NCBI GenBank assembly: GCA_947450025.1
Contig: CANFTW010000019.1
Span: 1-43,893, forward strand
Length of the DNA stretch: 43,893 nucleotides
Source of the DNA: Bacteroidota bacterium
GTDB lineage: Bacteria > Bacteroidota > Bacteroidia > B-17B0 > Aurantibacillaceae
Direction: 5' to 3'
Shown here one piece after another: positions 39,429 to 43,893 of the stretch. Position 1 is the first letter of the stretch. Every line of letters starts with the position of its first letter. The notes under the pieces were generated by a model, which was not told the DNA's origin, did no database searches, and worked only from the letters and a program-made list of their open reading frames with translations. A program made the translations under genes and the position numbers.

Positions 39429-39502
39429 TCCTTCTTAGCTCAGCTGGTTAGAGCACATGACTGTTAATCATGGGGTCCCTGGTTCGAGCCCAGGAGAGGG
39501 AG
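39429..39502 (+). tRNA. tRNA-Asn (anticodon GTT)
   Basis: The full cloverleaf is visible: acceptor TCCTTCT / AGAGGGA with one T-G pair, D stem GCTC/GAGC, anticodon stem CATGA/TCATG with loop CTGTTAA (GTT at 39463-39465), variable loop of 5, and T stem CCTGG/CCAGG with loop TTCGAGC. The discriminator is G. CCA is not encoded. The GUU anticodon is a Tgt substrate, so it links to the tgt gene of this window. Confidence 0.97.
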
Positions 39503-39503
39503 C

Positions 39504-39567: not shown

Positions 39568-39605
39568 GGCACCGTAGTTCAATGGATAGAATAAGCGTTT
39601 CCTAA
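39568..39605 (+). tRNA. 5' half of tRNA-Arg (anticodon CCT), interrupted
   Basis: The bases form the acceptor 5' strand GGCACCG, TA, D stem GTTC/GAAT with loop AATGGATA, A, anticodon stem AGCGT and the loop TTCCTAA with CCT at 39601-39603 flanked by the normal TT and AA. After the loop the sequence should continue ACGCT and a T arm ending CGGTGCC. It instead reads TTAATTTCTC, and no 3' half is found up to the window edge. The break at the anticodon loop is the usual crossover point of tyrosine recombinases. Either the 3' half lies at the far end of the island, or a complete copy is reconstituted there. Confidence 0.85.
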
Positions 39606-39610
39606 TTAAT

Positions 39611-39745
39611 TTCTCACATTTGTCTTCAAGAGAGAAATCTCTAACCCCTTCTAAATCAAGCGTAAAACTTAGAAGAGGTTGGAGATTTTTTATTTGTATC
39701 GCTAATAGTTTCAATCAATTCTCACAAATGGCTCACAAATTTGTG
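39611..39745. repeat. CTCACA-type repeats flanking the hairpin (candidate recombinase arm sites)
   Basis: TTCTCACATTTG (39611-39622), TTCTCACAAATG (39719-39730) and GGCTCACAAATTTG (39730-39743) are three similar direct repeats. The last is part of the 12-base palindrome CACAAATTTGTG (39734-39745), 20 bases before the recombinase ATG. They could be arm-type binding sites of the recombinase, or an operator of its gene. Confidence 0.45.
39635..39690 (+). terminator. Long hairpin at the island end
   Basis: A 20-base stem (39635-39654 with 39669-39688, two G-T pairs), a 14-base loop and a T run lie between the broken tRNA and the recombinase. It would stop transcription entering from the tRNA promoter; it could also be a structural part of the attachment site. 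Confidence 0.7.
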
Positions 39746-39765: not shown

Positions 39766-41157
39766 ATGAAGACAAAAAACGTAAAAATTAGTTTGGATTG
39801 TAAAACCAATCACATTTCTAAAGGAAGGAAATTTCCATTGTTATTAAGGGTTGCTTGTAATGGCAAACACATCTACATCAATATCGGCAAATCAATAGAA
39901 GAAAAATTCTATGATAAGCAAAACAAGGAAATTAAAAAGGAGGTAAAGGGTGCATCTTCTTACATTGATTATGTGGAAAGGCATAAAGTAAAAATTAGCG
40001 AAATAATTTCCGATTTTGAACGAAATGGTCAGGTAATTAATCTCCAAAAAATAAGAGAAACTTATTTATTTCAATTAGGAAAAATAGATTCTGTTAGTTT
40101 TTATGAATACGTTAAAGAAACTATTGATAAAGAAAAAGAATTGAGTTTGCTTAAAGAAAAAACACTCTATAATTACGAAAGGAATATGGTGATATTAAAC
40201 GAGTATTGTCCAACGCTATCCATTCACGATATTGACAAAACATTTTTAGAAAAATATGAATCACATCTTTTACATAAACTTAAAATGTCAAGAAACTCTA
40301 AATTTCACGCTATGTGTTTCATTAGAAAATACACATTGAGGTTATTTAAGGACGGAAAAATTAAAAATTACCCATTCAGTTCCTATATCGTTGGAAGTCC
40401 TGAACTAGGCGAACCACTTTATTTAGAATTAGAGGAACTTAATAAATTACACGACCTATATGAAAGCGGTGAATTATTAAAAATTGTAAGAAATTCAAAA
40501 AGTAAGTTTACAAAGTATAAAACATTTCCACTAGGTGAAAAGTATCAAGAGGTATTGAAATACTACCTTGCCAGTTGTTATTGTGGACTTAGGCACTCTG
40601 ATATTAAAACCTTAAAAACATCTGAAATAAAGGGTGCACATATTGTAAAAATAATGAAGAAGGGAAGAAAAGGTCAACTTAAAGAAGTAAAGATACCCAT
40701 AAGAAAAAGATTTGAATCTTTACTTCAACGTAAGTCTGAAAATGGGTTTGCTTTTGGTGTAAAAGTTAAGGAGTGTTCTCAAACAAATAAATATTTGAAA
40801 GATATTGCAAAAATTGCAGGTATTGAAAAGGAACTTACATTTCATAGTGCAAGACACACATTTGCAGTAGTTTCTTTAAGATTAGTAATACCTATTGATG
40901 TAATCAGCAATGTTTTAGGACATTCTGAATTAGAAACTACACAACGATATGCACGTGTAGTTGCATCCTATAAAAATGAACAAATGAATAAGTGGGATAA
41001 GATTGCAGGAGATGCACATATCACGGAAATTGAAGTCAGTTGCCCTAATTGTACGTTATCGGTAATGAAATTTGCTAAGGACGTTCTAAAACTTAAAAAA
41101 ATACCTTGCAAATGTCAAAATTGCAACGAGGATTTTGTTTACTGTATTGCAAGTTGA
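39766..41157 (+). CDS. Tyrosine recombinase/integrase with C-terminal zinc ribbon
   Basis: This 463-residue integrase has an N-terminal arm-binding-like domain (about 5-75), a SAM-like core-binding domain (about 110-205), and the catalytic domain (about 215-400). Catalytic residues are R276 (CYCGLRHSDI), H360 and R363 (HSARHTF), H386 (LGHSELETTQ) and nucleophile Y395. Beyond the tyrosine, residues 420-463 add a zinc-ribbon-like extension with CPNC (426-429) and CQNC (450-453), unusual for this family. Six of its 19 arginine codons are AGG, including R276; the interrupted tRNA beside it reads that codon. It is the first gene of the island, and the start is the ATG 20 bases after the palindrome at 39734-39745. 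It converges on the restriction gene. Confidence 0.92.
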   Translation: MKTKNVKISLDCKTNHISKGRKFPLLLRVACNGKHIYINIGKSIEEKFYDKQNKEIKKEVKGASSYIDYVERHKVKISEIISDFERNGQVINLQKIRETYLFQLGKIDSVSFYEYVKETIDKEKELSLLKEKTLYNYERNMVILNEYCPTLSIHDIDKTFLEKYESHLLHKLKMSRNSKFHAMCFIRKYTLRLFKDGKIKNYPFSSYIVGSPELGEPLYLELEELNKLHDLYESGELLKIVRNSKSKFTKYKTFPLGEKYQEVLKYYLASCYCGLRHSDIKTLKTSEIKGAHIVKIMKKGRKGQLKEVKIPIRKRFESLLQRKSENGFAFGVKVKECSQTNKYLKDIAKIAGIEKELTFHSARHTFAVVSLRLVIPIDVISNVLGHSELETTQRYARVVASYKNEQMNKWDKIAGDAHITEIEVSCPNCTLSVMKFAKDVLKLKKIPCKCQNCNEDFVYCIAS

Positions 41158-41199: not shown

Positions 41200-43893
41200 C
41201 TATTTCATACCATTTAATCCTCTGTTGAAGATTTCCTTCACCATACCAAACATCATCGCTGAGAAATCCGATTTAAACTCTTTGTTGTCAGAATATAATT
41301 TATAAAGGTCGAAGTTAGTGGTGATGTGCTTTAACAGTTCCTCTCCAACAATTTTATCGCTCGTTATCCGAGCATTTTGTTCATCAGAAAAATTAAGTGC
41401 TGATTTCAACTCCTCATTCTTTGCAACATCTTTTGCAATGTTCTCTGCCATTTGTCTTACCTTATCGGTATCTTCAAACTCAGTACCGTACCTGTCATTA
41501 AAGGTTTTTAAGATATTAGATAATCTATCAATCTCTGGGTTGCTATTGCCCCCTCGCATATCGGTTGGTATCGGTTGAATTTCTTCACCTTGCTCTAACA
41601 CAATGTTTATAGTTGTTTCGAGTTGCAAACGGTAACTATCCATATCAATATTATCTAAAATTCCCTTTGATAAATCAAGAGGAGCGTCACCTCCTAATTT
41701 GTTTTGCAGGTGGTTTAGGAAAATGTATAATCGCTCTAAATACGGATTTTCAAATGGTACTATCTGCGATAAGAAAACATACAACCGAACATAAGTCTTT
41801 ACCTTCGCCCTAAAATCAGTTTGTTGTTCTTCGTTTAAATCGTTTCTGAATATTTCGGAACTGCTGTCTAATATTGCGTGTAATTGGTCAACAGGAACGT
41901 TCGCAAGAATCTTATCTGAAAATTCGTTTACCTGCTCAACAGTATATACCTGAAAATTATCTAACGCATCTTTCAGGTCAAATAATTTGTTCGGGTCTGT
42001 TGCTTCTCCCAAAATGGTACTTTCAAAATACGGTAGAAATGCTTTTTCAATGTCTTCAGCCGAATTGGCAAAATCTAAAACAAAAGTATCTTTCTTCAAT
42101 GGGTGACTGCGGTTTAAGCGAGATAATGTTTGCACTGCGTTTACGCCTCCCAGTTTTTTATCTACATACATTGTATGCAGCAACGGTTGGTCGAATCCTG
42201 TTTGATATTTATTAGCAACAATTAAAAAACGGTATTCGCTTTTCTCAAATTCAGACGGTATTGAATTGCTCGAAAACCCATTTAGGTTAGATTCTGTTTG
42301 CCCGTTAATTTCTCCCGAAAAGGCAACAATAGCCTTGTAAGGGCTGTTTATCTTTTTAAGGTATTCGTCAAATGCTCTTTTGTATTTAACAGCGTTTGCT
42401 CTCGAACTTGTTACCAACATTGCCTTTGCCAAACCGCCCATTCGTTTTGCCATTACAACGTTTTCCATAAACTGCTGAATAATTAAAATCGTTTTTTTCT
42501 TAATAGCGTGTTCGTGGCTTTCAACGTATGCTCTTAGTTTTTTCTGTGCTCGTAACTTGTCGTATTCTGGGTCTTCTTCTATCTTTTTGAGCAAAGCATA
42601 AAAACTCTGATAGGTAGTGTAATTCTGCAACACATCCATAATAAAACCTTCTTCAATGGCTTGTTTCATTGAGTACAGATGAAACGCTCTGAATTTAGTT
42701 TTATCTCCTTGAGGGAAGGGAACACCAAACAATTCTAAGGTTTTGTTTTTAGGAGTTGCAGTAAATGCAAAGTAACTAGCGTTACTTAGTAATTTTCTCG
42801 ATTTAATTAAATCTGTTATTAAATCTTCGCCTGTTACAGTGTCGTTATCTTCTGTATGTTCTTCGTCATCGTCATCATCATCTGTTTTTTTAGATAAAGA
42901 TTCGTTTAGTTTCCTTGCCATTTGACCGCTGAGACTGCTATGAGCCTCGTCAATGATAATTGCAAAGTTTGAACCTGCCAATTCGCCTATTTCTCCTACG
43001 ATGTGAGGGAATTTTTGAATGGTAGTAATGATGATTTTTTTTCCTTCTTCTAAGGCTTCTTTTAATTGCTTAGCACCTTCGGTAATGGCTTCAACCACAC
43101 CGTTCACTTGCTGAAACTGCTTTATATTGTTGCGTATTTGAGCATCTAACACCCTACGGTCGGTAACAACAATTACTGTATCAAAAATATTATTTGTACC
43201 CGATTTGTCGTGTAAGCCAACCAATTGATGAGCCAACCAAGAAATAGAATTTGATTTGCCAGAACCAGCCGAATGTTGAATCAGGTACTTTTGCCCTGTT
43301 CCGTTTTGTTGTGCGTCTGCCAAAAGGCTTCGTACCGCTAACAATTGATGGTAACGAGGGAATATTAACTTAGTTTCTTTCTTTGTTCTTATTTTCCCTT
43401 TATCATCTAAGTACTCTTTTTCTTCGGTTATTTGTTGACAGAAATTTTGAATAATATCGGTCAGATTATGTTTAGTTAGAATCTCTTTCCACAAATAGTC
43501 TGTTTTAATACCCTCGTTTGGCGGGTTTCCTGCTCCGTTGTTGTATCCTTTGTTGAAAGGTAAAAAATACGATTTCTCTTTTTTAAGATGCGTACACATC
43601 CACGTTTCTTCGGTATCAACGGCAAAGTTTACAATCAACCTTCCTAATCTAAAAATTTCTTCGCTTGGGTCTCTGTCTTCTTTGTATTGTTTGATGGCGT
43701 TTTTTACGGTTTGTTTCGTTAATTCATTTTTCAATTCAAATGAAATAACGGGGATACCATTGATAAAAACCATCATATCTAATGATTTTTTATTTTTTGG
43801 CGAAAAATAAACCTGACGCATTACCGAAAACAAATTGGCTTGAAATAACGCATTTGCGTCAGCGTTATAGGCAGAAACAGGTTTGTTGTAAAA
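41200..43893 (-). CDS. hsdR: Type I restriction enzyme R subunit (5' end cut by window edge)
   Basis: This is the ATP-dependent translocase and nuclease subunit of a type I restriction system. The frame is open to the window edge, giving 897 visible residues; the true N-terminus is outside. Numbers below refer to the visible part. The nuclease motif SFELKNELTKQ (E53-x-K55) lies near the start, then helicase motifs: Walker A QHSAGSGKSNS (K213), DEAH in IIIDEAHSS (about 314), FAFTATPKNKTL (about 375-386), and QTLSRLNR motif VI in the second RecA domain. A poly-Asp insertion (DDDDDDEE, about 338-345) sits between motifs II and III. The start drawn by the first Met/TTG at 43833 is not real, since FYNKPVSAYNADANALFQAN precedes it in frame. 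hsdM and hsdS should lie further right. Confidence 0.93.
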   Translation of the reverse strand, partial: FYNKPVSAYNADANALFQANLFSVMRQVYFSPKNKKSLDMMVFINGIPVISFELKNELTKQTVKNAIKQYKEDRDPSEEIFRLGRLIVNFAVDTEETWMCTHLKKEKSYFLPFNKGYNNGAGNPPNEGIKTDYLWKEILTKHNLTDIIQNFCQQITEEKEYLDDKGKIRTKKETKLIFPRYHQLLAVRSLLADAQQNGTGQKYLIQHSAGSGKSNSISWLAHQLVGLHDKSGTNNIFDTVIVVTDRRVLDAQIRNNIKQFQQVNGVVEAITEGAKQLKEALEEGKKIIITTIQKFPHIVGEIGELAGSNFAIIIDEAHSSLSGQMARKLNESLSKKTDDDDDDEEHTEDNDTVTGEDLITDLIKSRKLLSNASYFAFTATPKNKTLELFGVPFPQGDKTKFRAFHLYSMKQAIEEGFIMDVLQNYTTYQSFYALLKKIEEDPEYDKLRAQKKLRAYVESHEHAIKKKTILIIQQFMENVVMAKRMGGLAKAMLVTSSRANAVKYKRAFDEYLKKINSPYKAIVAFSGEINGQTESNLNGFSSNSIPSEFEKSEYRFLIVANKYQTGFDQPLLHTMYVDKKLGGVNAVQTLSRLNRSHPLKKDTFVLDFANSAEDIEKAFLPYFESTILGEATDPNKLFDLKDALDNFQVYTVEQVNEFSDKILANVPVDQLHAILDSSSEIFRNDLNEEQQTDFRAKVKTYVRLYVFLSQIVPFENPYLERLYIFLNHLQNKLGGDAPLDLSKGILDNIDMDSYRLQLETTINIVLEQGEEIQPIPTDMRGGNSNPEIDRLSNILKTFNDRYGTEFEDTDKVRQMAENIAKDVAKNEELKSALNFSDEQNARITSDKIVGEELLKHITTNFDLYKLYSDNKEFKSDFSAMMFGMVKEIFNRGLNGMK

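Follow-up and report, generated by a model that had tools for sequence, protein, structure and literature searches.

A tRNA-Arg(CCT) gene split by an integrative element in a Bacteroidota draft genome, and related elements that carry a complete tRNA-Arg(CCT) of their own

We have analysed a stretch of Bacteroidota DNA (the window, 43,893 bases, which is all of contig C19 of the MAG-type draft genome G000, with 28 contigs) and confirm that an integrative element has split the host tRNA-Arg(CCT) gene in its anticodon loop. In our judgement the window probably contains the integrase-side end of an element which does not rebuild the gene that it enters and whose own divergent, complete tRNA-Arg(CCT) takes over. 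A sequence-only reading of this DNA had offered two explanations, that the element restores the gene at its right end from a 5'-half copy, or that the gene is truly broken and AGG is left to another tRNA-Arg; a complete tRNA-Arg(CCT) borne by the element is a third possibility. According to the scheme we propose, the tyrosine integrase would exchange strands between a short core in attP and the host tRNA-Arg(CCT) gene at its anticodon loop, cutting the 7-bp loop, the flanking stem of which would give inverted core sites, and it would use arm repeats on both sides of attP, as in the lambda-type scheme. The host tRNA would be lost and its role would pass to the complete tRNA-Arg(CCT) of the element, which in the case of the window presumably lies in the unassembled part. 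The element tRNAs would then be expressed, charged and able to compensate for the loss of the host gene.

The split gene and the DNA behind it

The half gene at the left junction reads GGCACC...GTTTCCTAA and is the 5' half of a tRNA-Arg(CCT); a tRNA-Arg(CCT) covariance model gave it 24.1 bits (E = 0.006 for the genome). Positions 39574-39605 are identical, at 32/32 positions, to the intact tRNA-Arg(CCT) of eight relatives of the same genus (G001, G003, G004, G006, G008, G010, G012 and G015). The sole tRNA called by ARAGORN and Rfam in the window is the neighbouring tRNA-Asn, and the DNA behind 39605 is unable to complete a tRNA. The left junction is thus not a tRNA, and the sequence-only reading was right that an integrative element has split the gene in its anticodon loop and that the tRNA is not restored on the integrase-proximal side. 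Its remark that no 3' half follows within 4.3 kb holds for the window, but the window is the whole contig, so the right end lies outside the assembly: at 43893 the contig breaks off within the element, and G000 does not allow that end to be read.

Table 1. Features around the split tRNA-Arg(CCT) gene in the window, and accessions of related loci
Feature	Position in window, or accession	Strand	Basis
tRNA-Asn(GTT), intact, upstream neighbour	39429..39503	+	ARAGORN, Rfam
Host tRNA-Arg(CCT) 5' half, left junction	39568..39605	+	sequence match, covariance search
TTCCTAA, anticodon loop and common attachment core	39599..39605	+	repeated beside host 3' half at right end of G014 and G409
Element DNA between core and arm site	39606..39719	+	sequence; alignment and fold of 8 loci
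Inverted repeat AAATCTCTAACC...GGTTGGAGATTTTTT with T-run	about 39635-39692	+	sequence; fold of 8 loci
Direct-repeat arm-type site TCTCACAAATGGCTCACAAAT, 21 bp	39720..39740	+	8-locus alignment
Tyrosine integrase, 463 aa (arm-binding, SAM-like and catalytic domains)	39766..41157	+	Pfam PF17293, PF13102, PF00589
Type I restriction hsdR, N-terminus lost at contig end	41200..43893	-	Pfam HSDR_N, SWI2_SNF2; PADLOC REase_I
G014	CAILKE010000076.1		
G051	PLUL01000007.1		
G409	CANIKO010000009.1		
G467	JAGVJJ010000024.1		
G468 (other contig)	CAISYK010000632.1		
G469	JACRAL010000094.1		

The target site is intact in most of the relatives in which it was recognised. The 32 nt of the half were matched in 41 of 60 genomes, the window's own included, by a pattern search which allowed at most 3 mismatches and so missed divergent copies, and 16 of the 19 relatives of the same genus have exactly one match each. 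At 27 of 29 loci read outside G000, ARAGORN calls a tRNA-Arg(CCT) at the matched place; the exceptions are a locus in G014 (L049), with none, and one in G033 (L039), where the tRNA stands about 0.35 kb further on. Seven of these 29 loci have a tRNA-Asn on the same strand ahead of the intact tRNA-Arg(CCT), and in five of the seven the two are within about 75 nt of each other. Behind the tRNA-Arg(CCT) the genes differ among ten relatives, and synteny is no guide to the downstream side. One further tRNA-Arg(CCT) (L096, G005:C75:275735-275817) contains an internal NN and a repeated piece, which is probably a scaffolding artefact.

Behind the core, the inverted repeat could act as a terminator between the tRNA promoter and the integrase gene, shielding the latter. 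The hairpin shows weak covariation across the eight split loci described below, and the structure is weakly supported in the relatives. The arm repeat stands beside the integrase gene at all eight loci, with 19 of its 21 bases invariant, and G014 and G409 have it on the other side of the core as well; the arm domain of the integrase probably binds it. The window integrase is 55% identical to that of G014, 50% to that of G051 and 46% to that of G409. Its C-terminus (window 40990-41157) has a zinc-ribbon-like CPxC...CxxC arrangement, the cysteines of which are largely kept in relatives. The hsdR gene that follows matches positions 120-920 of the 1032 in phrog_3830.

Whole, partial and decayed elements in other Bacteroidota

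The same split with the 21-bp arm repeat was found at seven other Bacteroidota loci, in G014, G033, G051, G409, G467, G468 and G469, and the six with accessions in Table 1 are recorded as MAGs of Bacteroidetes or Bacteroidia. The G014 junction is 89.6% identical to that of the window over 106 bases spanning the split. A complete tRNA-Arg(CCT) lies on the same contig as the split at five of the eight loci (G014, G409, G033, G467 and G469) and one cut by the contig edge at a sixth (G051); the two loci without any, the window and G468, are both cut by contig ends.

Both ends of the element can be read in G014 and G409. The G014 element measures 15,152 bp from left core to right core, in the order 5' half, integrase, complete element tRNA, 44 bp, arm repeat, 72 bp, and GTTTCCTAA with the host 3' half. 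The order in G409 is the same over 44,781 bp from core to core, with 110 bp from the tRNA to the arm repeat and 84 bp from there to the core. Comparison of both junctions gives a core common to attP and attB of 9 bp, GTTTCCTAA in G014 and TTCCTAAAC in G409, and since just these 9 bp are shared, the host gene is not rebuilt in either genome. Neither junction is a complete tRNA, and attP is without a tDNA fragment that could rebuild the gene. A complete, different tRNA-Arg(CCT) stands within the element at its right end, next to the orphaned 3' half of the host gene. Identity of the element tRNA to the host halves is 30/38 and 25/35 in G014 and 36/38 and 28/35 in G409. The anticodon stem of the element tRNA pairs with itself at 5/5 positions in four loci and at 4/5 in G033, and the two host halves pair at 5/5 in G014 and G409; the host 5' half with the element 3' half forms 1-3 of 5 pairs (five loci). 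The extra tRNAs are thus genes of their own and not rebuilt host genes. The G409 element tRNA has one acceptor mismatch (6/7). The motif TAnnTTTG, which we take to be the -7 promoter motif of Bacteroidota, occurs 33-46 nt upstream of four of the five element tRNAs (2-12% of shuffles each), G409 being the one without the exact motif.

Two loci appear as relics. G033 has the host 5' half, the arm site, what reads in the sequence as the broken-off start of an integrase gene, a complete tRNA-Arg(CCT) and then secA; in G469 the host 5' half and arm site are followed by an integrase remnant (residues 8-140), a complete tRNA-Arg(CCT), two genes of GmrSD_N and AAA_15 type and later ruvA. The host 3' half was not found in G033 or G469, and neither genome yielded a tRNA-Arg(CCT) besides that of the element. 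In these two, as in G014, G409 and G467, all other covariance matches that ARAGORN could name have other anticodons. ARAGORN called the G469 tRNA even though its single best fold does not form a cloverleaf. That the tRNA was kept in two shrunken elements suggests that it is of benefit. The G467 tRNA lies about 17 kb into the element, and a gene for a CI-like S24 repressor (L187:1011-1855) stands directly before it on the same strand; the remaining 3.8 kb of the contig has no host 3' half. The tRNA-Arg(CCT) of G051, cut by the contig start, has the opposite orientation and lies 5.7 kb from the split. In G468, where the contig stops some 0.5 kb beyond the arm site, no tRNA-Arg(CCT) was found.

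The few integrase matches in the class (3 of 395 genomes, the window's own included) and in the phylum (its own only, of 395) indicate that the element family is rare. A family-level pattern search returned one of 87 genomes, again its own; the gaps it allowed were too short to include G014 and G033. Nine loci came from an integrase search, of which six were used; L161 and L163 are without the split, and L162 was left out. The integrase search of genome contigs gave no relatives among 48 stretches and that of plasmids and phages none either, while of the searches of viral contigs some gave nothing, one gave a single distant match and one gave two stretches with an arm-like repeat and no tRNA beside it.

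The genome of the window and the competing explanations

The sequence-only reading had proposed searching for the completing 3' half and counting the arginine tRNAs that read AGG. In the 28 contigs of G000 the host 3' half had no match to a 26-nt pattern, even with 3 mismatches allowed, and none in a covariance search at E <= 1, an approach that did recover the host 3' halves of G014 (41 bits) and G409 (40.1 bits). No tRNA-Arg(CCT) was found in the assembly; its arginine tRNAs have the anticodons TCT, ACG and CCG. The tRNA-Arg(TCT) may read AGG, so a replacement may not be essential. These absences are weak evidence of absence in the organism, because the assembly is incomplete: the 28 tRNAs found in G000 do not cover Ala or the GAT (Ile) anticodon, and hsdM seems to be missing. 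The single match to PF02384 (methylase), at 28.5 bits with a family cut-off of 20.4, lies on another contig, C12, which suggests that the assembly lacks the partner of hsdR and, along with that gene, the right part of the island. A DNA search of G000 with the contig end matched only itself above 35 bits, and inspection by eye of the left edges of 28 contigs and the right edges of 26 (that of C8 left out) did not reveal the missing HsdR N-terminus. A Fic-family gene (L074:4660-5325) runs off the end of the small contig C26 of G000. Type I restriction loci can contain Fic genes, and it is possible that this one is the next piece of the window island.

Could the window nevertheless be an ordinary island whose attP holds a copy of the 5' half and which rebuilds the gene at its unassembled right end? 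Islands in tRNA genes usually do rebuild their target, and the right end of this island lies outside the assembly; in the available part of the Islander study the displaced tDNA fragment is a 5' one in 159 islands and a 3' one in 3760 (PMC4383910). We find this improbable, because G014, with a 55%-identical integrase and a near-identical junction, has just the 9-bp core before the host 3' half, because a separate complete tRNA stands 0.14 kb before its right junction (G409 likewise), and because the element 5' half and the host 3' half pair at 3 of 5 anticodon-stem positions only. Restoration from a 5'-half copy, as first suggested for this DNA, is contradicted in G014 and G409, and we rejected it there on the junctions as read and on the pairing of the stem.

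We also give little credence to the idea that the gene is broken and nothing replaces the tRNA, with tRNA-Arg(TCT) reading AGG. The set of arginine tRNAs in the G000 assembly would fit it, and AGG is seldom used (18 of 8,774 codons in a choice of 16 window ORFs), but a cognate tRNA is present in the element or its remnant at six of the eight split loci, and the gaps in the assembly weigh against it as well. The part of the earlier alternative that stands is that the host gene is truly broken; that AGG is left to another tRNA does not agree with the relatives, in which the elements supply a complete tRNA-Arg(CCT). A misjoin at 39605, which the sequence-only reading had named as a refutation, might be suspected in a MAG-type draft of 28 contigs with a contig end 4.3 kb further on. 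It is very improbable, since junctions of this kind recur in seven other genomes, where the DNA immediately after the core is conserved element sequence: G014, another MAG, has the same junction, and six further loci share the split and the arm repeat. Returning to replacement by an element-borne tRNA, we hold it somewhat likely in general that Bacteroidota elements, not necessarily phages, with restriction-type cargo split tRNA-Arg(CCT) and supply a full replacement, and that after decay the foreign tRNA is the only copy, a permanent replacement of a core gene (G033 and G469).

Relation to known systems, and cargo

The closest parallel is the tRNA-dependent lysogeny of actinobacteriophages described by Guerrero-Bustamante and Hatfull in 2024 (PMC10865867). 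In the available text of that study the design consists of a core of 8-17 bp, no rebuilt tRNA and a cognate tRNA on the phage, and the frequency outside actinobacteriophages is left as a question. Our elements share with it a tyrosine integrase with arm sites, an attB in a host tRNA gene, a short core (9 bp in G014 and G409), the absence of a junction that rebuilds the tRNA and an element tRNA with the same anticodon. They differ in their Bacteroidota hosts, in their target, as tRNA-Arg(CCT) is absent from Table 2 of that paper, in the distance of the tRNA from the right arm site (44-110 bp in G014 and G409) and in relics that retain the tRNA. A prophage of Lactobacillus johnsonii, Lj965, cited in the same text, likewise does not rebuild the tRNA and has the cognate tRNA aboard, and differs in being a Lactobacillus prophage. 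Prophages like Mesorhizobium phage vB_MloP_Lo5R7ANS are reported in the tRNA-Leu(UAG) of two strains of Sinorhizobium meliloti (PMC11476347); as far as the available text goes, the host tRNA is there too inactivated by integration and a similar isoacceptor gene carried, the differences being an alphaproteobacterial host, tRNA-Leu as target and a prophage as carrier. Islander-type islands have a tyrosine integrase, an anticodon-loop crossover and a displaced tRNA fragment in common with our elements, but according to the same part of PMC4383910 they rebuild the target from a fragment borne by attP, which G014 and G409 do not. Such tRNA replacement is reported absent in another prophage group in the accessible portion of PMC12429752.

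In the literature searched, outside which most subscription papers lay, no Bacteroidota case of tRNA-dependent integration was found. What is new relative to tRNA-dependent lysogeny is the occurrence in Bacteroidota, the cargo, which includes restriction genes, and the relics that keep the tRNA. If the right end of the window resembles those of G014 and G409, tRNA-dependent integration extends beyond phages of Actinobacteria and the Lactobacillus and Sinorhizobium cases to elements of Bacteroidota. The relics suggest a lasting gene replacement, in which the chromosomal tRNA gene is lost and the copy from a mobile element is kept. Software that searches for islands by a rebuilt tRNA beside a tRNA fragment will overlook elements of this kind or interpret them wrongly.

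A type I restriction system lies next to the integrase gene in G014, in the place where the window has hsdR, and the cargo includes a YhcG-type nuclease in G467 and GmrSD/AAA genes in G469. The Pfam scans covered part of each element (10 ORFs of G014, 11 of G409, 13 of G467 and 4 of G051), and ten of these ORFs or their neighbours were compared with PHROGs; no phage structural protein was recognised among the scanned ORFs, a difference from the actinobacteriophages, and the elements may or may not be phages. The G014 element also encodes, on the minus strand, a 160-aa HTH protein, possibly an antitoxin-like regulator (L062:7437-7919), which ends in GEENSYAMAA. The same ten residues are the tmRNA tag that ARAGORN gives for G000 (L079:13155-13523), a genome other than the carrier G014, and they would form a gene-encoded ssrA-like degron. 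Together with its neighbour (L062:6971-7429), this gene matches the PADLOC candidate system PDC-M64C.
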